From Modestobacter roseus (GTDB lineage: Bacteria; Actinomycetota; Actinomycetes; Mycobacteriales; Geodermatophilaceae): a stretch of 64,000 nucleotides of DNA. Location: NCBI RefSeq assembly GCF_007994135.1, contig NZ_VLKF01000001.1:434001-498000 (forward strand), written 5' to 3'. The notes beneath the pieces were generated by a model that did not search any database, was not told where the DNA came from, and saw nothing but the letters and a program-made list of their open reading frames with translations. Positions within the stretch are counted from its first letter, which is position 1. Each line of letters begins with the position of its first letter. The position numbers and the translations under genes were made by a program. Shown here in pieces: positions 10,326 through 25,829 of this stretch.

Positions 10326-11618
10326 TCACCCGCCGGCCCCGGTCAGCGGTCCGGGCAGCCGCGTGGCGCCGGCCTCCGCGGGCCGCGGTCGGTCCTCGGG
10401 GTGGGCGCGCACGGCGAGCAGCGCGACGTCGTCGGCCGCGGAGCCGGGCACCAGCCGGGTCAGCAGGGTGTCGCACAGCTCCTCGAGCGGAGTGCGCCCT
10501 AGGTCGCGCAGCGCCTCCTGGAGGGCGGCGAGCCCGGCATCGAGGTCGGAGCCCGGCCGCTCGACCAGGCCGTCGGTGAACATCAGCAGCGTGCTGCCGT
10601 CGGGCAGGTCGACGTCGTGCTCGTGCCGCGCCGTGTCGGCGGTGACCCCGAGCATCAGGTCCGCGGTGGTGGCCAGCGCCTGGGAGGTGCCGTCGGCGGC
10701 CAGCAGCACCGGCGGCAGGTGACCGGCGTTGCTCCACCGCAGGACACGGCCGCCGGTGCCGGCCCGGCGCTCGACCCGGGCCAGCACCGCGGTGGCCAGG
10801 GTGCTCACCGCCAGCCCGGCGGCCGCGTGCTCGGTGCGGGACAGCGTCGCCGGCAGCGGTTCGTCGTTGTCGTAGGCGAGGGCGCGCAGCAGCCCGCGCA
10901 GCTGCCCCATCGCGGCCGCGGCGTCGCTGTCGTGCCCGACGACGTCGCCGATCACGAGCACGGTCGCGCCGTCGGGCTGCAGGAACGCGTCGTACCAGTC
11001 GCCGCCGACCTGCGCGCCGGAGGCGGCCGGCAGGTAGCGCACCACCAGGTGCAGGTGGTCCGGCTGCGGCGGCGGGGTGAGCAGCGCCTGCTGCAGCCGG
11101 TCGGAGAGCGCGCGGTCCTCGGCGGCCCGGCGGGCGATCTCGCGCAGCCGGGCGGCCTCGGCCTCGGCGGCCTGCCGTTCGGTGAGGTCGCGGAAGGAGA
11201 CGACGACGCCGGTCACCCGCCCGTCCTCGACCGTGGGCACGGCGACCAGGTCGACGGGGACGGCGTGCCCGTCGCGGTGCCAGAACACCTCGTCGGCGGC
11301 GTGCACCGTCTCCCCGGTGCGCAGCGCACGCCACACCCCGCACTCCTCGACCGGCAGCCGGGTGCCGTCGGGGCGCCGGGCGTGGATGAGCTCGTGCTGG
11401 TTGCTGCCGAGCTGGACGGCCTCCGGGTACCCGGTGGCCCGCTCCGCGGCGGGGTTGACGAACTCCACGCGGCCGTCGGCGTCCAGGCCGTAGATGCCGT
11501 CGGCGGTGTTGTCCAGGATCTTGCGGGACAGCTCCAGTGCTCGGGAGAGCTCCGCCTCGACGGCCTGCAACCGGACGACGTCCGCGGAGTGCTGGGCGGG
11601 GGTCCGGCGGTCCGGCAT
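10326..11618 (-). CDS. PAS domain PP2C (SpoIIE/RsbU-type) phosphatase
   Basis: A 430-residue protein. An N-terminal PAS domain (ILDNTADGIYGLDADGRVEFVNPAAERATGY to FRDLTERQ) is joined by a short coiled coil to a PP2C-like SpoIIE domain. Catalytic metal-site motifs are present: GGDWYDAF, IGDVVGHD, MFTDGLVE and ADDVALLAV. Proteins of this type dephosphorylate anti-anti-sigma factors (STAS proteins) and so release alternative sigma factors in partner-switching stress pathways. The ATG at 11618 follows GGAGGAG; the frame extends 9 codons further. No STAS partner is in the window, though an HATPase anti-sigma-like gene lies at 15804. Confidence 0.9.
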   Translation of the reverse strand: MPDRRTPAQHSADVVRLQAVEAELSRALELSRKILDNTADGIYGLDADGRVEFVNPAAERATGYPEAVQLGSNQHELIHARRPDGTRLPVEECGVWRALRTGETVHAADEVFWHRDGHAVPVDLVAVPTVEDGRVTGVVVSFRDLTERQAAEAEAARLREIARRAAEDRALSDRLQQALLTPPPQPDHLHLVVRYLPAASGAQVGGDWYDAFLQPDGATVLVIGDVVGHDSDAAAAMGQLRGLLRALAYDNDEPLPATLSRTEHAAAGLAVSTLATAVLARVERRAGTGGRVLRWSNAGHLPPVLLAADGTSQALATTADLMLGVTADTARHEHDVDLPDGSTLLMFTDGLVERPGSDLDAGLAALQEALRDLGRTPLEELCDTLLTRLVPGSAADDVALLAVRAHPEDRPRPAEAGATRLPGPLTGAGG

Positions 11619-11690
11619 GGGGTGGGGCTCCTCCTCGAGGTGCACGGGTGCCCCCAGCCTGCCGCACGCCCGGTCGGCGGCTCCGGCGGG

Positions 11691-12553: not shown

Positions 12554-15084
12554 TCACTCCGGCAGGACGTGGGAGAACACCGACCGCGGTGCGCCGTCCC
12601 GGTCGCGCACCACCGAGACCCGCACCAGCGCCGGCACCGTCGAGCCGTCGGTGTGCACGAAGGCGGTGGACAGCTCGGTCACCCCGGTGAACTCGGTGAA
12701 GAGACCGGCGACGGCGGGCCGCTCCGGCGCCGGGGTGAGCTCCTGCACGTGGCAGTCGCGCAGCTCCTCGGTCGTGGTGCCCAGCAGCGCGGCGAACGCC
12801 TTGTTCACCCGCAGCAGCCGGCCGTCCATCCGGGTCAGCGTCATCCCGATCGGGGCGTCGTCGAAGGCGTGCCGGAACATCGCCTCGCTGGCGGCCAGCT
12901 CCCGCCGCGCCTCGACGGTGGCGGTGACGTCCCGGGAGACCGACAGCACCTCCCGCACCCGGCCGTCGTCGTCGCGCAGCTGCCGGGTCTCGCTCTCCAG
13001 CCAGCGGAGGTCGCCGTCGCGGTGCACGTACCGGTGCACGGCGGTGCCGTCGAGCACGTGGGCGGCCAGCTCCGGGTCGGCGATCAGCCGGCCCAGGTCC
13101 TCGCGGTGCAGCAGGTCGCCGATCGACCGGCCGATCAGCTCCTGCGGGAGCCAGCCGAGGATCGGGCCGCTGCTGGCGGAGGCGTAGCTGATCCGCAGGT
13201 CCGGGGCGGTGACCAGCACCAGCTCGTCGTTGCCCCCGAGCGGCAGCACCGCGCTGCTCCCGGCCCCGGCCGGGGGCCGCTCACCGCGCGCCTCGACAGC
13301 CGCTCGGTGAGCGCGGGGGAGGCCGGCTCGGGCTTGCCGAACAGCCAGCCCTGGGCCGCGTCGCAGCCCATCGCGATCAGCTGCCGGGCCTGCTCGTCGG
13401 ACTCGACGCCCTCGGCCAGCACCCGGCGGCCCAGGCTGTGCGCGGCCTCGACCACCAGCCGGACCAGCACCGCGTCGGCGGTGTCGCTGGCCACCCGCTC
13501 GACGAAGGACCGGTCGATCTTCACCAGGTCCAGCGGCAGCGCGCGCAGCAGGCTCAGCGCCGAGTGCCCGGCGCCGAAGTCGTCCAGCGCGAGCCGCACG
13601 CCCAGGTCGCGGACCTGGGTGAGCCGGGCCGCGGTGGCGCCCAGGTCGGTGATCGCGGCCGTCTCGGTGATCTCCAGGCACAGCCGCTCGGGGGCCAGGC
13701 CGCTGTCGGCCAGCGCCCGCACGACGTCGTCGAGGAAGTCGCGCTGGGCCAGCTGGACGGCGGAGACGTTGACCGCGACCGTGGCGGCGACGCCGGTCGG
13801 CCCGGCCGGCCAGCCCGCGGCCTCCCGGCAGGCGGTCTGCAGCACCCAGCGGCCCAGGTCGACGATCAGCCCGGTCTGCTCGGCCAGCGGGATGAACCGG
13901 TCGGGCGGGACGACGCCGAGCTCGGCGTCGTCCCAGCGGGCCAGCGCCTCGACCCCGGTGACCTGCCCGCCCGGCAGCGCCACGACCGGCTGGTAGTGCA
14001 GCGCCAGTCCACCGGTCTCGATGGCGTGCCGCAGCCGGCGCTCCATCTCGTGCCGGGCGCGGACGACGTCGGAGGTCTCGGCCTCGGCCAGCAGCTCGCT
14101 GTCGAAGTGCGCGACCCGGCCGCGGCCCAGCGACTTGGCGCGGTACATCGCCAGGTCGGCCTGGTGCAGCAGGTCGTCCAGCGACACCGGCAGCCGGCCG
14201 TCGGACCCGGCCACCCCGACGCTCGCGCCCAGGCTCACCAGGTGCTCGGCCGGCCCGTCGGCGCCGAGCGCGCTGACCACGAACGGCGCGGCCGCGGCCA
14301 GCACGATCCGGTCGGCCAGCGCGCTGCGCTGCTCAGCGCTCATCGCCGTACCGGTCACCACGGCGAACTCGTCGCCGGAGAGCCGGACCACCAGGTCCTC
14401 GGCGCGGGCGACCCCGCGCAGCCGGCGGGCGAACTCCACCAGCACCTGGTCACCGGCGCTGTGCCCGAGGTGGTCGTTGACGTCCTTGAACCGGTCCAGG
14501 TCGATGTAGCAGAGCACGCCCTGGCTGTCGGTCTGCCGGAGCCGCTCGAGCAGAGAGATCCGGTTGGGCAGCCCGGTCAGCGGGTCGTGCAGCGCCTGCC
14601 AGGCGTACTGCCGGGCCAGGTGCTCGAACAGTGCGGTGACCGGTACCACCAGCAGCCGGTTCCCCGGCGCGGTCACCACGACGGCGTCCAGCAGGTGGTC
14701 GCCCGCCGCGCGCCGCTCCACCACGGCGGCGGCCGCCTGCGGCACCGGAGCACCGGCGGGGAAGCGCAGGGTCGCCGGTACGCCCAGGTCGGAGAGGTCG
14801 CGGCGGGCGTGCACCAGCCGGCCGTAGCCGAGCCGGCCGGTCATCGATACCTCGAACCAGGACCGGCTGACCAGCACCGGCGCCTCGGGTCGGTCGGTGA
14901 CCACCCAGCGCAGCCCCGCGTCCCGGCGGAACAGGGCGTCGAGGGCGGCCAGCGGCATCTGCGGGGGCACCAGCCGGGCCGGCACCGCCAGGTCGCCCAG
15001 CGTGGTGCCCGTCGTGCCTGGCTCGTCGGGGTCCGGCACCGCGAGTGCCGAGGTGGCGGACGCCACCGTCCCGGTGCTGGTCAT
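12554..15084 (-). pseudogene. CBS-like/GGDEF/EAL/PAS cyclic-di-GMP protein, frameshifted
   Basis: Intact reading would give about 843 residues. The ATG at 15084 (GGGGAGGA upstream) begins a CBS-like N-terminal region. A GGDEF domain follows (RLSGDEFAVV, with an inhibitory-site RAED just before it), then a complete EAL domain (VEALARW, NVSAVQL, LEITET, ALDDFGAG, VKIDRSF, LAEGVE, AQGWLFG). Two PAS domains (from about 13260 down to 12554) continue in a different frame. The switch lies between about 13260 and 13330 and needs one extra base. Without it the first frame runs into unrelated residues and stops at 13135. The alternative is a separate PAS-only gene starting at a GTG near 13250. The enzyme would make and/or degrade c-di-GMP. 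Confidence 0.78.
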
Positions 15085-15239
15085 CGACCCTCGTCCTCCC
15101 CGGACCGCCGGGTGACGGTCGTCGGGACGAATGATGATCATGAACCGTGGGGCGCGGCGATGCCCTCTCACCCGTCCGGGTCGGCGCCGCCGGGGAGCCC
15201 CTGCGGGCGCCCGAGGCCGCGGTCGGGGACGATGGTCGC

Positions 15240-15791
15240 GTGGTGGCACCCGTGGCGCGTGAGCTGATCGTCCTGGTCGACGACGACGGGACGGAGATCG
15301 GCACGCTGCCCAAGTCGCTGGTGCACCACGGCGAGACCCCGCTGCACCGTGCCTTCTCCGCCTACCTCTTCGACGAGGCCGGACGCCTGCTGGTCACCCG
15401 CCGCGCCGAGGACAAGGCGACCTTCCCGGGCATGTGGACCAACACCGTCTGCGGGCACCCGGGTCCGGGGGAGGACGACCCGACGGCGATCGCGCGCCGG
15501 GCGCGCTACGAGCTGGGCCTCGGGGTCGCCGACCTGCGCCCGGCGGTGCCGTCCTACCGCTACCGGGCGGTGTTCCGCGGCGTGGTGGAGAACGAGATCT
15601 GCCCGGTGTGGATCGGTCGCTTCACCGGCACCCCGGCACCCGAACCGACCGAGGTCGGTGAGTGGGAGGTGCTGGACTGGGCGGAGTTCCGGGCCCGCCA
15701 GGAGGCGCAGCTCGACGACGCCTGGTCACCCTGGTGCCGCGAGCAGGCCCGGCTCATCGAGGCCGCCGGCCTCGTGCCGACCGGGGCCTGA
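15240..15791 (+). CDS. idi: isopentenyl-diphosphate delta-isomerase (type I)
   Basis: A 183-residue Nudix-fold IPP isomerase that interconverts isopentenyl and dimethylallyl diphosphate for isoprenoid synthesis. Visible family features are the PLHRAFSAYLFDEAGRLLVTRRA opening, the active-site Cys in TNTVCGHP, the metal ligands around HPGPGEDD, and ENEICPVWIG, which carries the catalytic glutamate region. The GTG at 15240 (GGGGA upstream) is preferred; in-frame GTGs at 15243 and 15252 are possible. The gene stands alone, facing the HATPase gene, so no pathway neighbours help. Confidence 0.93.
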   Translation: MVAPVARELIVLVDDDGTEIGTLPKSLVHHGETPLHRAFSAYLFDEAGRLLVTRRAEDKATFPGMWTNTVCGHPGPGEDDPTAIARRARYELGLGVADLRPAVPSYRYRAVFRGVVENEICPVWIGRFTGTPAPEPTEVGEWEVLDWAEFRARQEAQLDDAWSPWCREQARLIEAAGLVPTGA

Positions 15792-15803: not shown

Positions 15804-16790
15804 TCAGGCGCGCACGACGAGCCGGACGGTGCAGCCCTGACCGCTGTCGTCGGCCGCGGTGGTGGTGAGGGTGTCGACCGACCGGCGGGCCAGCCACAGC
15901 CCCATCCCGCCGACGGCCATGTCGCCGTGCGCGGGGCCGTAGCCCACCAGCGGGTCGTCGAAGGACGTGCCCCGGTCGGTCACCGCGCACAGCAGCCGCT
16001 CCGGGGTGCACCACAGCTTCACGTCGACCGGGGGCACGCCGTGCTCGGCGGCGTTCGCGGTCACCTCGTCGATGGCCAGCACGAAGTCCTGCGCGGCCTC
16101 CTCGGTCAGGGCGCTGTCGGCCAGCGCCTGGCGCAGCGCCCTGCGCAGGGCCCGCATGTCGTCGAGGTCGATGACCGACAGCGTGGGCTCGGTGGCCTCC
16201 AGCGGATCGGGCACCAGCGCCCGCTCCACCTCGCGCAGCAGCTCGTCGGGCGCCCGGTAGTCGGGGTTGCGCAGGACGCCCTCCTCGGTCAGCAGCCACG
16301 GGTGGGTCGCCCGGGCCACCGCCTGCGCGTCCACGCCGTCCAGCTCGCCGAGAGCGGGGGTGAGCAGGCACAGGTGGTCGACCGGGCGCTCGGCCAGCAC
16401 GTGGTTGAGCAGCGCCTCGGTCTGCGCCCACGACCTCCAGTCGTCCGGGTCACCGGGGCCGGTCACCAGGTGCAGCCGGCGCCCGTCGTCCGGGAGCTCG
16501 CGGTCGACCAGGGAGCCGATCGCGGCGATGGCGTTCGGCGGGCGGTCGTCCAGCGCCTCCGCGGGGTGCACGTGCACGTCCTCCGGGTGGCCCACGGCGA
16601 CCAGCAGCTGGGTGGCCACCGGCTCGGTGCAGGCGACCACCACCGGTTCACCGGCGTCGAGGGCGGCCCGCAGCACCGGCCCCACGAGCGCCGCGACGTC
16701 CTCGCCAGGGCGCACCACGTGGCCGATGTGCCGGTAGCCACGCACCGCCGGGCTCGGTGACGGATCGACCTGCTGCTGGGCGTGCTCCAC
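15804..16790 (-). CDS. MEDS-domain anti-sigma-type HATPase (RsbA-like)
   Basis: A 328-residue two-domain protein. Residues about 20-190 form a MEDS (DcmR-type sensory) domain, with a typical start GYRHIGHVVRPGEDVAALVGPVLRAAL. The C-terminal ~130 residues are a GHKL HATPase_c_2 domain with the N-box VLAIDEVTANAAEHG and the G-box VGGMGLWLARRSVD. This architecture is annotated in actinobacteria as an RsbA-type anti-sigma regulatory protein. It is expected to bind or phosphorylate partners in sigma-factor partner switching. The GTG at 16790 is favoured by GGAGGAGG upstream, although its spacing is long; the frame opens at 16862. Confidence 0.82.
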   Translation of the reverse strand: MEHAQQQVDPSPSPAVRGYRHIGHVVRPGEDVAALVGPVLRAALDAGEPVVVACTEPVATQLLVAVGHPEDVHVHPAEALDDRPPNAIAAIGSLVDRELPDDGRRLHLVTGPGDPDDWRSWAQTEALLNHVLAERPVDHLCLLTPALGELDGVDAQAVARATHPWLLTEEGVLRNPDYRAPDELLREVERALVPDPLEATEPTLSVIDLDDMRALRRALRQALADSALTEEAAQDFVLAIDEVTANAAEHGVPPVDVKLWCTPERLLCAVTDRGTSFDDPLVGYGPAHGDMAVGGMGLWLARRSVDTLTTTAADDSGQGCTVRLVVRA

Positions 16791-16921
16791 GGGGCGGGCC
16801 CGCCTCCTCCGTCGGTTGCTGTGACGCGGGGTCTGTGCCCGAGGAACGTGATCGGGAACCATCGGACGCGGCAGGTCACACCGGCCGGCATGCGCGGGCG
16901 GCTCCCGGTGTTCCCACCGCC

Positions 16922-18815: not shown

Positions 18816-21227
18816 TCAGCCCCGCTGCTCGTTGAGCCGGACGGCGATCAGGGCGACGTCGTCCTCGGCGCCGTCCGGCAGCAGCCGGGTGATCAGCGCG
18901 TCGGCGATCTCGCCGACCGGCCGGTCGGCGAGGGTGCCCAGCTCGGCGCACAGCCGCGCGACCCCCTCGTCGAAGACCTGGTCCCGGCGCTCGACCAGGC
19001 CGTCGGTGTAGAGCAGCACGGTCGAGCCGCGCGCCATCGTGGTGACGTGCTCGCGGCGGGGCGCATCCGGGGAGACGCCCAGCAGCAGCTCCGGGTGCGG
19101 CCCGTCGAGCACCTGCACCGAGCCGTCGGGGGCCTGCACGACCGGCGGCAGGTGGCCGGCGTTGGACCAGCGCATCCGGGTCAGCCCCCGCTCGCGCTCC
19201 TCCGGCGTCTGCTCCAGCCGGCCCACCAGCACCGAGGCCATCGTCCTCAGCTGCAGCCCCTCGATGGCCCGGTCCAGCCGGGACAGCACCTCGGCCGGGG
19301 TCTCGGAGCTGGCAAAGGCGATCCCGCGCAGCAGCCCGCGCAGCTGCCCCATGCTGGCCGCGGCCTCGGTGTCGTGACCGACGACGTCCCCGATCACCAG
19401 CATCGTGCTGCCGTCGGGCTGGGTGAACACGTCGTACCAGTCGCCGCCCACCTGGGACTCCCGGGCCGCGGGCTCGTACCGGACGGCGAAGTCGAGGTGG
19501 TCGGGGTCCGGCGGTTCCGACAGCAGGCTCCGCTGCAGGGTCAGCGCGGTGCGCGCCACCCGCCGGCTGCGCGCGTACAGCGCCTCGAGCAGGTTGGTGC
19601 GCAGGTCCTCGACCTCCGCGCACTGGGTCGGCTGCCAGGGCTCGGACCGGTTGCGGACCACCTCGCGCCAGCGGTCGAAGGACTTCCGCGGGGAGAGCCG
19701 GACGGTGTAGCCCTCGCGCTCGGCGATCGCCTTGTTGTGCGGGTCACCACCCCAGTCGACCGAGTGCACCTGCTCCGCACGGGTCCAGATCACGTACTGG
19801 CCCTCCGGCAGCGGGATGGCCATCACCCCGCAGGCCAGCTCCGCGGGCACCGCCAGCTGGGGGGCGACGAGCGGCAGCCGGTCGGTGGTGACCACGTCGC
19901 CGCCCTGCTCGGTCGCCCAGCGGGCCAGCGCGGTGACCACCTCGGCGGGCAGCGGCACACCGGCCGCCCCGCTCGTGCCCTGCAGGTTGACCACCACCGA
20001 GTCGGCCGGGACGACGTCGAGCAGCCCGGGCCGGCCCAGCAGGGTGTCGGCGAGCGGGCGCTCCTCGTCCAGCGCGGCGGCGGTGAGCCAGGCCATCGTC
20101 GAGCGGACCTGGAGGGCACGCCGGTGCTCCTCGTCCTCCGCCCGGTCGACGAGGCGCAGCGACAGCGTCGAGCCGAGGAACTCCGCGGCCGCCCGGGTGG
20201 CGTAAGGCGGGGCGTGCGTGCCGGTGTAGTGGTGGCAGGCGATGAGCCCCCACAGCCTGTCGCCCTGCAGCAGCGAGATCGACATCGAGGCGCGAACGCC
20301 CATGTTGCGCAGGTACTCGCAGTGGATGGGCGAGACGCTGCGCAGCGTGGAGTAGGTCAGGTCCAGCGGCCGGCCCGTGGCGGGCAGGTCGACCGGCTCC
20401 AGCGGCGAGGGCGTGTAGTCCACGTCGTCGATCAGCCGGATCCAGTTCTTCTCGTACAGCGCCCGGGCCTGCGCCGGTATGTCCGAGGCCGGGTAGTGCA
20501 GGCCGAGGAAGGAGTTCAGCTCCGGCGCCCTCGCCTCGGCCACCACCTCGCCGTTGTACTCGGCGTCGAACCGGTACAGCATCACCCGGTCGAAGCCGGT
20601 GAGCGCGCGCACCGCCTGGGTCGTGATGTCGTAGAGCTGTGGCAGCGAGGTGGCCCGGTTCAGCTCGACGATGGTGCCGCGCACCGCCTGGTAGGTGTTC
20701 GGGAAGGAGAACGGCCGCGGGCCGGAGGCCGGCTCCAGCTCCACCACGAGCGTCGTCGCCGCGATGGGGGTCAGTCGCCCGCCGACCGACGGATCGTCGG
20801 GGTGCGCGGCGGGCCCGCGGTCGTCGGCGCGGTGGGACACCCGGTGCAGGATCGCGTCGACCGGGCACGGGGTGCCGTCGCAGTCGAGGATCAGCTCGAC
20901 CGGGTTGCGCTCGCGCAGGTCGCCGAATGCGCTGGCGGACCGGGCCACGGCCCCGGCCGCGGGCACCCCCAGCACCTCGGCCAGCGGGCGGCCGAGGGCG
21001 TCGTCCCAGGCCATGCCGACGACGTCGACGAGGTTGCGCGACACCTGCCGCACCACCATGTCCGGCTCGCTGACCGCCAGCAGCACGCCGCGGGGCTGGA
21101 CACTGCCCGGGACGTGGATCGGCTCCCGCTCGCAGTTGGTCAGGTCGACCGGTTCACCGGGCGCCAGCCACGGGCTGGTCGACGTCTCGTCCGTCTGCAC
21201 CCGGCCGGTCTGCACCTGGTCGGTCAT
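18816..21227 (-). CDS. bphP: bacteriophytochrome with PP2C (SpoIIE) output domain
   Basis: An 803-residue red/far-red photoreceptor. PAS: LTNCEREPIHVPGSVQPRG contains Cys32, the biliverdin-attachment cysteine of bacterial phytochromes. GAF: FDRVMLYRFD, then SDIPAQARALY near residue 250 (the DIP chromophore motif) and CHHYTG. A PHY domain follows. The output is not a histidine kinase but a SpoIIE/PP2C phosphatase from about residue 570, with GGDWYDVF, IGDVVGHDTEAAASMGQL, LYTDGLVE and EDDVALIAV. Light would thus control dephosphorylation of a STAS-type partner and release of a sigma factor. The ATG at 21227 overlaps the heme oxygenase stop as ATGA, giving a coupled photoreceptor operon. Confidence 0.93.
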   Translation of the reverse strand: MTDQVQTGRVQTDETSTSPWLAPGEPVDLTNCEREPIHVPGSVQPRGVLLAVSEPDMVVRQVSRNLVDVVGMAWDDALGRPLAEVLGVPAAGAVARSASAFGDLRERNPVELILDCDGTPCPVDAILHRVSHRADDRGPAAHPDDPSVGGRLTPIAATTLVVELEPASGPRPFSFPNTYQAVRGTIVELNRATSLPQLYDITTQAVRALTGFDRVMLYRFDAEYNGEVVAEARAPELNSFLGLHYPASDIPAQARALYEKNWIRLIDDVDYTPSPLEPVDLPATGRPLDLTYSTLRSVSPIHCEYLRNMGVRASMSISLLQGDRLWGLIACHHYTGTHAPPYATRAAAEFLGSTLSLRLVDRAEDEEHRRALQVRSTMAWLTAAALDEERPLADTLLGRPGLLDVVPADSVVVNLQGTSGAAGVPLPAEVVTALARWATEQGGDVVTTDRLPLVAPQLAVPAELACGVMAIPLPEGQYVIWTRAEQVHSVDWGGDPHNKAIAEREGYTVRLSPRKSFDRWREVVRNRSEPWQPTQCAEVEDLRTNLLEALYARSRRVARTALTLQRSLLSEPPDPDHLDFAVRYEPAARESQVGGDWYDVFTQPDGSTMLVIGDVVGHDTEAAASMGQLRGLLRGIAFASSETPAEVLSRLDRAIEGLQLRTMASVLVGRLEQTPEERERGLTRMRWSNAGHLPPVVQAPDGSVQVLDGPHPELLLGVSPDAPRREHVTTMARGSTVLLYTDGLVERRDQVFDEGVARLCAELGTLADRPVGEIADALITRLLPDGAEDDVALIAVRLNEQRG

Positions 21228-21877
21228 GCGGTGACCTCGCTCCCTCGGACGTGCGCCCGCGGCAGCGCTGATCCAGAGTCTCCCTGCTCCGCGGCGACCG
21301 CGCCGCACCAGACGGCGAGTGCGCCGAAGGTCTCCCGCGCGGAGGCCACCACCCGCTCGGCGTCGCCCCCGCCGGCGACCCGCTCCCGGGTCGCCGACCG
21401 GAAGGCGTGCCACATCGCGCCGGTCTCCGCGCCGTAGGGCGAGAACGCGCGCAGCGCGCCGGGCGCCGCGACGTGCGGCAGCGTGGCCAGGTGCCGGTCG
21501 ATGAACACCCCACCGAGCGAGGAGCCCTCCAGCACGTACAGCCGTCCCAGCGCGGTGTCCGTGCCGGCCACCGGCGGCAGGTGCGGCTGGTCGACCGGCG
21601 TCGCCGGCGCGTCGAGCTCGGCGAGGTCGGCGGCGAAGAGGTGCGATCGGCGCCGGCGCGACCAGCCGACGCGGGTGGCGTCGGCCGGCTCGGCCGCGGC
21701 CCAGGCGTCCAGACCGGCCTCGGCGGCGCACCAGAAGCCGTGCATCCGGGTGAGGGCGGTGACCAGGCGGGCGCGGGTCAGCTCCGGGTCGAGCAGGTCC
21801 AGCGCGTCCTCGACGGCCCGGTGCTCGGTCGCGGTCTCGGTCCGCAGCCGGCGCAGCACGTCACCGTCGTCGGCCAT
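21224..21877 (-). CDS. bphO: biliverdin-producing heme oxygenase
   Basis: A 217-residue heme oxygenase. The proximal heme ligand is His19 in RTETATEHRAVEDAL. The distal helix motif is LGRLYVLEGSSLGGVFI, as in BphO/HemO proteins paired with phytochromes. It opens heme to biliverdin, the chromophore of the phytochrome encoded directly downstream with a 4-nt overlap. I chose the ATG at 21877; the frame also opens at a TTG at 21940, which would add 21 residues without similarity to the family start. Confidence 0.92.
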   Translation of the reverse strand: MADDGDVLRRLRTETATEHRAVEDALDLLDPELTRARLVTALTRMHGFWCAAEAGLDAWAAAEPADATRVGWSRRRRSHLFAADLAELDAPATPVDQPHLPPVAGTDTALGRLYVLEGSSLGGVFIDRHLATLPHVAAPGALRAFSPYGAETGAMWHAFRSATRERVAGGGDAERVVASARETFGALAVWCGAVAAEQGDSGSALPRAHVRGSEVTA

Positions 21878-21955: not shown

Positions 21956-23095
21956 TCACCCCTGCGACGGTTCCGTCGCCGTGTGCAACTGGTCGGCGCG
22001 CACGCCGAGGTGCAGCAGCAGGCGGTCCGCGCCGTCGGCGAGGTCGAGCCCGGTGAGCTGCTCGATGCGTCCCAGCCGGTAGTACAGCGTCTGCCGGTGC
22101 ACGCGCAGCCGCGCGGCGGCGCGCTGCGGGCTGCCGGCGCAGTCCAGCCAGGTGGCCGCGGTGGTGGTGAGCACCGGGTCGGCCAGCAGCGGGGCCAGCG
22201 CCGGGTCCGGCCCGGGCAGCGCCGCCACCTGCCGCCAGGCGCCCAGCTCGGACCAGGAGGCCGCCGGGGAGAACCGGGGGTCGACCGCAGCGACCCGGGC
22301 CGCGGTGCGGGCCTCCGCCCACTGGGCGGGCAGCTCGGCGCAGCTGGCCCGGGGGGCGGCCACCCCCGCGGTGCTCCCCGGTGGCAGGCCGGTCAGGGCG
22401 GCCGCACTCAGCGCACCCGCCGCCCGGGCGTCGCCGTCCCCGGGCAGGGCGAGCAGCACGGCGACCAGTGTGCCGCCGTCCAGCACCGAGGTCACCGCCC
22501 CGGCGCCCGGCGCGACCCAGCCCGCGGGCAGGCCGGCGGTTCCCGGGCGCAGCGCCACCAGCGTCACCGGGGTGCCGGCGCCCACCGCGTCGGTCAGCCG
22601 GCGCACCGCCCGGCCGGGGGAGTCCGCGGTCAGCGCCGTGCGCAGGGCGGCGGTGAGGTCCGGCGTCCCCGCGCCGTCCCCGGCCAGCAGCCGGCCGGCC
22701 TCCGCGGCCAGCTCCCGCGCCGCCGCCAGCCCGGGCGCGTGCGGGTCGGTCACGTCGGTCCGGCCGCCGTCCAGCAGCCACAGCCACCCGTGCAGCCGGT
22801 CGCCCGAGCGCACCGGCAGGCAGAGCCGGGTGAGGATGCCGGCGGCCGGGTCGGCGGGGATGCGCAGCGGGTCGGTCGCGGTGGTGATCCCGTGCTCCTC
22901 GAACCGGGCGCGCACCTGCGGGGTGGAGCCGCGGCCCAGGATCGAGCGGGTGCGGACGGAGTCCATGGTGCTGTCGCTGCCGTCGTCCCCGTGGGCGCAG
23001 AAGGCGAGCAGCGTGAAGTCCCGGTCCTCCAGCGTCGCCGGGGCGGCCAGCACCCGGGACACCTCGTCCACCAGGTCCTGCAGGTCGTCGCGCAC
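21956..23095 (-). CDS. PucR/CdaR family regulator, likely of proline catabolism
   Basis: A 379-residue regulator whose C terminus carries the PucR helix-turn-helix (SPQRAAARLRVHRQTLYYRLGRIEQLTG), preceded by a long sensory region of GAF-like character and a degenerate GGDEF-like central part. It is divergent from the proline dehydrogenase gene across 141 nt. In actinobacteria this arrangement usually means the PucR protein activates proline oxidation when proline is available. The GTG start at 23095 has GGGAGGAG at good spacing. The role in proline catabolism is inferred from context. Confidence 0.85.
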   Translation of the reverse strand: MRDDLQDLVDEVSRVLAAPATLEDRDFTLLAFCAHGDDGSDSTMDSVRTRSILGRGSTPQVRARFEEHGITTATDPLRIPADPAAGILTRLCLPVRSGDRLHGWLWLLDGGRTDVTDPHAPGLAAARELAAEAGRLLAGDGAGTPDLTAALRTALTADSPGRAVRRLTDAVGAGTPVTLVALRPGTAGLPAGWVAPGAGAVTSVLDGGTLVAVLLALPGDGDARAAGALSAAALTGLPPGSTAGVAAPRASCAELPAQWAEARTAARVAAVDPRFSPAASWSELGAWRQVAALPGPDPALAPLLADPVLTTTAATWLDCAGSPQRAAARLRVHRQTLYYRLGRIEQLTGLDLADGADRLLLHLGVRADQLHTATEPSQG

Positions 23096-23236
23096 CGGGC
23101 TCCTCCCGCCGTTCAGACGATCGTACGAAGACCGGTGCCGGATTCCCTACGTCTGTCGCTGGTGCGGGTGAGCCGCCGTCCCTAGCGTCGGAGGTCACAC
23201 CCCGGTGTCCCTGCCCCGTCGCCCCAGGAGGCGCTC
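23096..23236. promoter_or_regulatory. divergent promoter region, regulator/proline dehydrogenase
   Basis: The 141 nt between the two divergent genes contain the dyad-like stretch GACGATCGTACGAAG around 23117-23131, which includes the palindromes CGATCG and TCGTACGA. It is the likely binding place of the PucR-type regulator. AGGAGG lies before the GTG at 23237. No clear -35/-10 pair can be assigned. Confidence 0.4.
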
Positions 23237-24169
<933 letters not shown>

Positions 24170-24203
24170 TGAAGGACCACCTGATCCAAGGAGCTGATCC
24201 CAC

Positions 24204-25829
24204 GTGGACGCCGTCACCCAGGTCCCCGCGCCGCGCAACGAGCCGGTCGGCGACTACGCCCCCGGCTCGCCCGAGCGGGCCGCGCTCCAGCAGCGGCTGA
24301 CCGAGCTGGCCGCCGCGCCGGTCGAGCTGACCGCCACGATCGGCGGGGAGCAGCGGATGGCCGGCGGCGCGGCGTTCGACGTCGTCGCCCCGCACCGGCA
24401 CGCCCAGGTGCTCGGCACCTCCGCGGCCGCCACCCACGCCGATGCGCAGGAGGCGGTGCGCTGCGCGAAGGACGCCGCACCGGGGTGGGCGGAGCTGTCC
24501 TTCGACGACCGGGCCGCGGTGTTCCTCAAGGCCGCGGACCTGCTCGCCGGGCCGTGGCGGCAGACGCTCAACGCCGCCACGGTGCTCGGCCAGAGCAAGA
24601 CCGCGTACCAGGCCGAGATCGACGCCGCCTGCGAGCTGATCGACTTCTGGCGCTGGAACGTGCACTTCGCCCGCCAGGTGATCGCCGAGCAGCCCGTGTC
24701 GTCGGCCGGGGTGTGGAACCGCACCGACCACCGCCCGCTCGAGGGCTTCGTCTACGCGGTCACGCCGTTCAACTTCACCGCCATCGCCGGCAACCTGCCC
24801 ACCGCCCCGGCGCTGATGGGCAACACCGTCGTCTGGAAGCCCGCGCCCACCCAGCAGTTCGCCGCGCACTTCCTGATGCGGCTGCTCGAGGCCGCCGGGC
24901 TGCCCGCGGGCGTGATCAACATGCTGCCCGGTGACGGCGTCGCCGTGTCCGACGTCGTGCTCGCCGACCGCGACCTGGCCGGCATCCACTTCACCGGGTC
25001 CACCCCGGTGTTCCAGCACCTGTGGCGCACGGTGGGGGAGAACATCGCCTCCTACCGCGGCTACCCGCGCATCGTCGGGGAGACCGGCGGCAAGGACTTC
25101 ATCGTCGCCCACCCGTCGGCCGACCCCGACGTGCTGCGGACGGCGATGATCCGCGGCGCCTTCGAGTACCAGGGGCAGAAGTGCTCGGCGGCCTCGCGGG
25201 CCTACGTGCCGCGCAGCCTCTGGCGCCGGATCCGCGACGACCTGATCGGCACCGTCGAGGAGATCCCGATGGGCGACGTCACCGACTTCACCAACTTCAT
25301 GGGCGCGGTCATCGACCGGAAGTCCTTCACCAAGCTCTCGGGGGTCCTCTCGGCGGCCCGGGACGACGACGCGCTGACCGTCGTCGCCGGTGGCACCGCC
25401 GACGACAGCGAGGGCTTCTTCGTCCGGCCCACCGTCATCGAGGGCACCGACCCCGGCCACGACGTCTTCACCACCGAGTACTTCGGCCCCGTGCTGGCCG
25501 TGCACGTCTACGACGACGCCGACTACGACACGGTGCTGACCCAGATGGAGTCGGTGGCGCCCTACGCGCTCACCGGCTCGGTGATCGCCCAGGACCGGAC
25601 GGCGATCGCGCACGCGCAGCGCTTCCTCCGGCACGCCGCCGGCAACTTCTACGTCAACGACAAGCCGACCGGCGCCGTCGTCGGCCAGCAGCCCTTCGGC
25701 GGTGGCCGCGGCTCGGGCACCAACGACAAGGCCGGCGCCGCGCAGAACCTGCTCCGGTGGACCAGCACCCGGTCGATCAAGGAGACGTTCGTCCCCGCCA
25801 CCGACCACCGCTACCCGCACATGTCCTGA
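24204..25829 (+). CDS. pruA: L-glutamate gamma-semialdehyde dehydrogenase
   Basis: A 541-residue aldehyde dehydrogenase that oxidises glutamate semialdehyde (from pyrroline-5-carboxylate) to glutamate with NAD+. The general base is Glu293 (VGETGGKDF) and the nucleophile Cys327 (GQKCSAASRAY). The NAD site contains TPFNFTAIAGNLPTAPALMGN, characteristic of P5C dehydrogenases. The GTG at 24204 has AAGGAG 10 nt upstream. With the upstream proline dehydrogenase it completes proline to glutamate conversion in a two-gene operon. Confidence 0.95.
   Translation: MDAVTQVPAPRNEPVGDYAPGSPERAALQQRLTELAAAPVELTATIGGEQRMAGGAAFDVVAPHRHAQVLGTSAAATHADAQEAVRCAKDAAPGWAELSFDDRAAVFLKAADLLAGPWRQTLNAATVLGQSKTAYQAEIDAACELIDFWRWNVHFARQVIAEQPVSSAGVWNRTDHRPLEGFVYAVTPFNFTAIAGNLPTAPALMGNTVVWKPAPTQQFAAHFLMRLLEAAGLPAGVINMLPGDGVAVSDVVLADRDLAGIHFTGSTPVFQHLWRTVGENIASYRGYPRIVGETGGKDFIVAHPSADPDVLRTAMIRGAFEYQGQKCSAASRAYVPRSLWRRIRDDLIGTVEEIPMGDVTDFTNFMGAVIDRKSFTKLSGVLSAARDDDALTVVAGGTADDSEGFFVRPTVIEGTDPGHDVFTTEYFGPVLAVHVYDDADYDTVLTQMESVAPYALTGSVIAQDRTAIAHAQRFLRHAAGNFYVNDKPTGAVVGQQPFGGGRGSGTNDKAGAAQNLLRWTSTRSIKETFVPATDHRYPHMS

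Follow-up and report, generated by a model that had tools for sequence, protein, structure and literature searches.

A bacteriophytochrome phosphatase of Modestobacter roseus with sensor and output halves of different ancestry, and its probable STAS substrates

Known systems and the locus under study

Bacteriophytochromes (BphPs) with a SpoIIE/PPM phosphatase as output have already been drawn (PMC9587094, Fig. 2 legend). Phosphatases of the general stress response are driven by coiled-coil linkers, and their helical linker, being common to them, is proposed to make sensor and output halves exchangeable (PMC12143880). Which STAS protein a phosphatase recognises is set by docking loops in its PPM domain (PMC11418112). 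In Listeria, the photoreceptor behind the red-light input to SigB is reported as unknown in PMC3019169, which also cites that Listeria and Bacillus genomes had yielded no phytochrome. Here, a BphP joined to a PP2C phosphatase (BphP-PP2C) is described from Modestobacter roseus, encoded with its heme oxygenase in a stretch of 64,000 nucleotides (contig NZ_VLKF01000001.1, positions 434,001 to 498,000), hereafter the window. The reading preferred here, with a probability of about 0.68, is that the PP2C of the receptor acts on STAS proteins, that the output domain was swapped in Geodermatophilaceae and that the swapped receptor probably works in trans, on shared STAS proteins.

A bacteriophytochrome with a phosphatase output

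The gene pair and the parts of the receptor are as follows.

21224-21877, minus strand: bphO, heme oxygenase predicted to make biliverdin, 217 amino acids (Pfam, motifs, operon position)
18816-21227, minus strand: bphP, BphP-PP2C, 803 amino acids (Pfam)
19539-21170, minus strand: residues 20-563, BphP-derived, with the photosensory module and the greater part of the signalling helix
21132-21134, minus strand: Cys32, the chromophore cysteine (alignment)
19527-19631, minus strand: residues 533-567, signalling helix running unbroken from PHY into PP2C (structure model)
19521-19538, minus strand: LQRSLL motif, residues 564-569, crossover from BphP-like to PP2C-paralogue-like (sliding identity)
18819-19520, minus strand: SpoIIE/PP2C domain, residues 570-803, of the paralogue type, here 'type B' (GDVVGHD...DDVA) (trees, markers)

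Judged from its sequence, the assignment as receptor plus phosphatase is solid. Pfam places PAS_2 at residues 32-131 (E 7.7e-18), GAF at 195-353 (E 6.4e-17) and PHY at 384-553 (E 5.6e-40), all over the curated cut-offs, followed by SpoIIE at 604-798 (E 1.7e-39, 136.2 bits against a cut-off of 25). The closest solved sequences to the photosensory part are bacteriophytochromes (phmmer; 6bap at E 2.8e-112), and the closest to the PP2C part is Rv1364c (PDB 3ke6, E 1.3e-21). The BphP equivalog NF041576 of NCBIfam gives 324.9 bits for a cut-off of 1040 and matches the photosensory part only, a shortfall that is expected because the output domain differs. BphO scores just below the cut-off of Pfam Heme_oxygenase (E 2.7e-4, 21.3 bits, cut-off 23) and has no NCBIfam match. 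It carries the motifs EH and LEGSxLGG, which are common to its homologues. The host genome (4.5 Mb in two contigs) has one PHY match.

Related loci were chosen by similarity to the window protein, and conservation is therefore favoured in the counts that follow. The best 80 of 418 relatives were kept, 47 of them Geodermatophilaceae loci; the nearest among these 80 come from Modestobacter species, with at most 80% identity over the best segment. A wider set of 113 BphP-PP2C loci (the 80 plus 33 more) comprises 48 of the window's type and 65 others. Among Geodermatophilaceae, bphO lies directly upstream of bphP in 41/47 loci, hence the pairing is not due to chance. The stop of bphO reads ATGA or GTGA in all 41, with a start codon in the bphP frame at that stop in 39 of them (exceptions L084 and L085). 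The six loci without an upstream bphO are L095, at a contig end, and five from Modestobacter.

The N-terminal chromophore Cys, the DIP motif, the pocket His and the PRxSF tongue are defining features of BphPs. In all 81 aligned proteins, DIP keeps its Asp and Pro and PRxSF its P, R, S and F; the two pocket His and the PP2C motifs GGD, GD, DG and DD are likewise invariant. The chromophore Cys is found in 80/80 readable sequences of this alignment. Across the 113 loci, the Cys is present in 112/112 readable cases, H332 in 112/113 and the six Asp of PP2C in 113/113. In a class-wide sample, at least 31/394 genomes show, among the matches listed, one that extends from the photosensory module as far as the PP2C part, two of these stopping near residue 640-650. 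Collectively, these data confirm the observation made in an earlier sequence-only reading of this DNA, which had claimed a 4-nt overlap of bphO and bphP (ATGA in the DNA), a PP2C in place of a kinase output, and an intact chromophore Cys, DIP motif and PP2C metal motifs, the residues proving near-invariant in relatives.

Different ancestry of the phosphatase half

Output-domain replacement in Geodermatophilaceae, as read from trees and sequence markers, is well supported. The photosensory tree (47 rows, 500 columns) contains 42 of 114 BphP-PP2C rows, the window's included, and five kinase-type rows. In this tree, Geodermatophilaceae receptors nest among other BphP-PP2Cs, within a clade of 27 rows (100/98*) that also holds mycobacteria, Cellulomonas and families f31 and f47; a clade of 29 rows has supports of 98/93*. 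The PP2C tree (78 rows, after seven of 43 paralogue domains, being BphPs themselves, were dropped) puts the same receptors among the sensor-phosphatase paralogues of the window's genome (16 rows, 100/98*), and 33 other BphP PP2Cs fall away from them. The group joined by the PP2C half of the window protein is that of the PAS/GAF-PP2C paralogues of its own genome.

In the approximately unbiased (AU) test, holding 40 core BphP PP2Cs together (L210 and L230 left out) is rejected (lnL -67.6, p=5.9e-5); for the 27-row clade of the photosensory tree, p=5.8e-58. Because the groups were defined with the first trees already in view, both values are weakened. The conflict persists (AU p=0.0036) in a larger PP2C tree with 20 additional paralogues from other families, built after removal of seven long-branch paralogues and five near-duplicate mycobacterial rows. 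The nearest sister changes between the two PP2C trees, and the naming of a donor paralogue was given up.

Identity along the protein shows the same mosaic. As far as about residue 560, 30-residue stretches of the window protein share 30-77% identity with other BphPs, versus 7-23% with the paralogues. From about 570, the paralogues match better (70-83% versus 53-63% for BphPs at 591-620), and the gap narrows near the C-terminus (30-50% versus 29-35% at 751-780). Identity with L214, a near photosensory relative, is 66.7% over residues 20-560 and 39.0% over 571-800; an own-genome paralogue matches at 60% over 552-801. Four markers (D619, A792 and two one-residue indels) occur in 48/48 loci of the window's type and in 1/65 others, each time L230. 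In the other actinobacterial BphP-PP2Cs (64/65), the PP2C is of another type, here type A, which is probably the ancestral one.

L230 (G385, family f20) is a case apart, with a photosensory module that groups with kinase-type BphPs, a type-B PP2C and a linker span of 54 residues. It is an independent BphP-PP2C fusion.

Sliding identity and shared indels place the switch in similarity at LQRSLL (564-569), at the end of the signalling helix. An AlphaFold2 monomer model (44 sequences; mean predicted local distance difference test score, pLDDT, 86.9; predicted template modelling score, pTM, 0.67) shows residues 533-567 as a single helix whose end coincides with the joint. Its alignment combined the window protein with 43 of 47 references; L222 was left out of the reference list for unreadable letters. 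The aligned span 531-569 is 39 residues long at 112/113 loci, L230 excepted. Since the helix ends at the joint and the 39-residue span is unchanged, the exchange apparently left the transmission rod in place and supplied a different enzyme. This swap, which had escaped the sequence-only reading, probably matters most for substrate choice. Given that the STAS is chosen by docking loops within the PPM domain (PMC11418112), a new PP2C would be expected to come with a substrate of its own.

STAS and HATPase neighbours at related loci

Flanks of the 113 loci were scanned with profiles made from the STAS and HATPase domains of the window's own genome. Outside the window's type, a STAS gene lies within 1 kb at 20/65 loci, ten of which have an RsbW-like HATPase as well. 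At these 65 loci, 19 STAS matches fall within 500 bp, or 0.294 per kb, against one match in 588 kb at distances of 2-8 kb. As background, 14 mycobacterial genomes have 10-21 STAS matches each in 5.5-7.6 Mb. Ten neighbours submitted to Pfam were confirmed as STAS or HATPase.

The arrangements are diverse. STAS is upstream and divergent in eight Mycolicibacterium/Mycobacterium loci, and a convergent STAS-HATPase pair occurs in five loci (M. asiaticum, M. gordonae and L226) as well as in L215 of another family. On the same strand, bphP is followed by STAS in L219 and L232, with a 4-nt overlap in the latter, and by STAS and HATPase in L218; few-base overlaps of this kind depend on the start chosen by a simple gene caller. 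STAS-HATPase genes precede bphP in L233 and L234. In L210, which is the second BphP-PP2C of a genome from the same family as the window, STAS overlaps the downstream bphP on the same strand, and an RsbW-like HATPase gene is divergent. Because the gene arrangements differ, this argues for several independent associations of STAS with BphP-PP2C, even if the eight and the five mycobacterial loci are near kin. Most neighbours have a phospho-acceptor Ser, within DSSG in L210, L219 and L232 and within ASCG in most of the divergent mycobacterial set. STAS as the substrate is supported in the wider group and putative for the window receptor.

At L233:8293-9793, three STAS genes and an RsbW-like gene are packed upstream of the BphP-PP2C.

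Biliverdin supply

In five Modestobacter loci (L053, L056, L057, L090 and L096), bphO is missing between pucR and bphP. Loss of function was considered for them and dropped, given a strong heme oxygenase elsewhere in all five genomes (Pfam, 193-199 bits). In L051 and L059, two Modestobacter with bphO, the Pfam search shows no strong heme oxygenase; it misses their bphO and that of the window's genome, and thus counts the stronger-scoring enzymes only. The window's genome has a second heme oxygenase (Pfam, 177.5 bits) besides bphO. Since the loss of bphO and the presence of another heme oxygenase form a complementary pattern, this suggests that biliverdin supply is kept. With bphO as the query, ten genomes gave no match in a search that had no positive control. 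In two Mycolicibacterium genomes (L103 and L106), searches with bphO and with the Pfam model gave no heme oxygenase. The BphP-PP2Cs of these two keep all chromophore residues.

Proposed mechanism and competing explanations

In the proposed pathway, BphO makes the biliverdin for a presumably dimeric red/far-red receptor. Light would switch the bilin, and the resulting change in PHY would pass down the continuous helix into the SpoIIE/PP2C domain, altering PP2C dimerisation or a switch element as proposed for RsbU, RsbP and RsbZ (PMC12143880). In whichever direction light acts, on or off, the phosphatase would remove phosphate from the Ser/Thr of a STAS protein, which in its dephosphorylated form would sequester an RsbW-type kinase/anti-sigma by partner switching. 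In Geodermatophilaceae, a PAS/GAF-PP2C paralogue would have supplied a PP2C in place of the ancestral one, joined on where the helix ends. The swapped receptor would then probably work in trans, on a STAS that other sensor phosphatases use too. It is tempting to go further and propose that a domain transplant in the ancestor of the Geodermatophilaceae-type receptor redirected red-light input, which had gone to a STAS/RsbW cassette of its own, into the phosphatase network that serves the other sensors of the cell; L210, a separate receptor in this family, has a private cassette. The odds of this retargeting are about even.

Several observations weigh against the preferred reading. The profile scan finds a STAS at none of the 48 window-type loci, in about 735 kb of flank. 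It also finds none within 1 kb of bphP at 45/65 other loci, so that STAS absence does not track the swap alone; among these are eight of the nine bphO-bearing loci of the added 33 (L214, L220-222, L230 and L240-242), the ninth, L239, being of the window's type. The 20 loci with STAS are not independent, eight sharing one mycobacterial arrangement and five another. In the M. asiaticum/gordonae group, the STAS beside the RsbW-like HATPase has Cys at the phospho-position (FMSCSS, FMSCSA or FISCSS in L098, L105, L116, L126 and L226), and simple Ser phosphorylation is therefore disfavoured there. In the photosensory tree, the fork of Geodermatophilaceae and f31 has supports of 91/90, below the star, and the kinase-type outgroup, with its long rows, is not one side of a branch. 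On the output side, a profile of five own-genome sigma factors gives a single weak match in the flanks of the 113 loci (L225:401-1174, E 5.6e-6), with no STAS beside it; the sigma factor as a regular neighbour was accordingly discarded. The proposal of STAS partner switching in the sequence-only reading is partly supported, namely by the STAS neighbours of the relatives, but not at loci of the window's type.

The genome of the window offers candidate partners at a distance. It has 14 SpoIIE, 12 STAS and 23 HATPase_c_2 matches, and, by match coordinates, no STAS match comes within 2 kb of any SpoIIE match, which fits substrates in trans. One sigma factor is over the SigBFG cut-off (SigB/F/G-type), in a STAS - anti-sigma - sigma cluster far from bphP. 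The receptor might feed this SigF directly, dephosphorylating the cluster's RsbV-like STAS (C1:1822044-1822325) so that light sets SigF activity. This is unlikely. The sigma factor is the single one over the cut-off and the STAS upstream of it does have a phospho-Ser, but the adjoining anti-sigma (L139:7709-8239, plus strand; C1:1823.7-1824.2 kb) is without the N-box Asn that is typical of RsbW-type kinases and reads DEACATLA. It may therefore bind sigma without phosphorylating its STAS, and a separate kinase would be required. Moreover, five further STAS domains of the genome have Ser/Thr at the aligned phospho-position, and those of L018 and L022 lie within 2 kb of a HATPase with an intact N box. 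The missing Asn and the lone weak sigma match also count against the sequence-only reading where it went on to an alternative sigma factor in this organism. A shared substrate and a sigma output are both put forward here as hypotheses. A more specific proposal is that the receptor has a single shared STAS as its target, namely the one paired with a HATPase at C1:3712.1-3713.0 kb (L141:4075-5025). It draws on the type-B PP2C L012, which overlaps a HATPase gene by 4 nt; among the own-genome HATPases compared, the closest to the product of that gene is the one beside STAS L018 (49% over 139 amino acids), and L018 has GSAG at the phospho-site. The chain is nevertheless indirect, and the numerous type-B paralogues may well differ in substrate, which makes this proposal slightly more doubtful than the direct route to SigF.

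Two other explanations are somewhat less likely still. According to one, there was no swap and the Geodermatophilaceae receptor is a fusion of its own between a BphP sensor and a local PP2C, an event that L230 shows to occur. The photosensory module, however, nests within type-A receptors in the two starred clades, the 531-569 span has the length found in these receptors, and replacement needs one event. According to the other, the phosphatase acts on non-STAS phospho-Ser/Thr proteins or the receptor is a bilin/redox sensor without a light function, as the lack of STAS near window-type loci might suggest. Against this, the Cys, DIP, His and PRxSF residues are unchanged in nearly all copies, bphO is kept in 41/47 loci with another heme oxygenase in the five Modestobacter without it, and the nearest solved PP2C, Rv1364c, is a partner-switch phosphatase (role from PMC12143880).

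Other genes in and around the window

Three further genes of the window were considered.

10326-11645, minus strand: PAS-PP2C phosphatase, a type-B PP2C paralogue (L008; Pfam, PP2C trees)
15804-16862, minus strand: MEDS-HATPase, RsbA-like, possible kinase partner (NCBIfam RsbA 195.2 bits, below the cut-off of 210)
21956-23095, minus strand: PucR-type regulator upstream of bphO, divergent from a proline dehydrogenase gene

The first two had been put forward, on sequence alone, as parts of a partner-switching system. Both exist according to Pfam, and the MEDS-HATPase, 2 kb from bphP, has an intact N box. Their role as such parts is weakly founded: the MEDS-HATPase is in the fetched flank of 13/47 Geodermatophilaceae loci (Modestobacter, Klenkia, Goekera and L058), some loci being shortened by contig ends, and SpoIIE and HATPase_c_2 matches abound genome-wide (14 and 23, as above). 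The local genes as a complete switch were dropped on these grounds. The Pfam STAS search agrees with the former statement that the 64-kb window contains no STAS; the nearest one lies 4.4 kb beyond the window end, about 46.5 kb from bphO.

Of the 47 Geodermatophilaceae loci, 35 have a PucR homologue in their flank, and in 32 it ends within 600 nt of the bphO/bphP frame. Beside the proline dehydrogenase stands an aldehyde dehydrogenase, probably a pyrroline-5-carboxylate (P5C) dehydrogenase (window 21956-25829, PucR included). A light-related role for PucR was considered and set aside, proline use being simpler given these neighbours; the regulator is probably outside the light pathway.

A GGDEF-EAL protein lies near the MEDS-HATPase in the window (13135-15249 and 15804-16862). 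A second GGDEF-EAL/MEDS-HATPase pairing, together with a STAS, is found just past the window end (L140:1743-7351). A pairing of cyclic di-GMP (c-di-GMP) signalling with a partner switch is possible.

Comparison with known systems

The overall architecture is already in print, as PAS-GAF-PHY joined to a SpoIIE/PPM phosphatase (PMC9587094). What is new here is that the photosensory and PP2C halves are of different ancestry. The available part of that paper describes no partner genes, operon or phosphatase-domain exchange, and in it BphPs cluster by effector, whereas in one family here the effector differs in ancestry from its sensor.

The receptor outlines a concrete pathway, testable with two proteins, by which red/far-red light could enter a bacterial stress switch via a phytochrome. 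It also represents a natural experiment, both on sensor/output exchange via a helical linker (PMC12143880) and on the choice of STAS by PP2C docking loops (PMC11418112). The joint marks the stretch of helix where a phytochrome could be fused to other phosphatases as a red-light tool.

Light also feeds partner switching in YtvA and Lmo0799, which act through LOV-STAS on SigB; there, unlike in the receptor described here, the photoreceptor is itself the STAS and senses blue light (PMC3019169, PMC4844311). RsbU, RsbP and RsbZ share the plan of a sensor, a helical linker and a PP2C that dephosphorylates a STAS anti-anti-sigma factor (PMC12143880). The sensor here differs from theirs in being a biliverdin-type phytochrome, and the word phytochrome is absent from the main text of that paper. 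Rv1364c (PDB 3ke6), whose PP2C is the closest solved one to that of the window, takes its input from PAS and carries both an anti-sigma and an anti-anti-sigma domain in fusion (PMC12143880); here, a phytochrome takes the place of that input.

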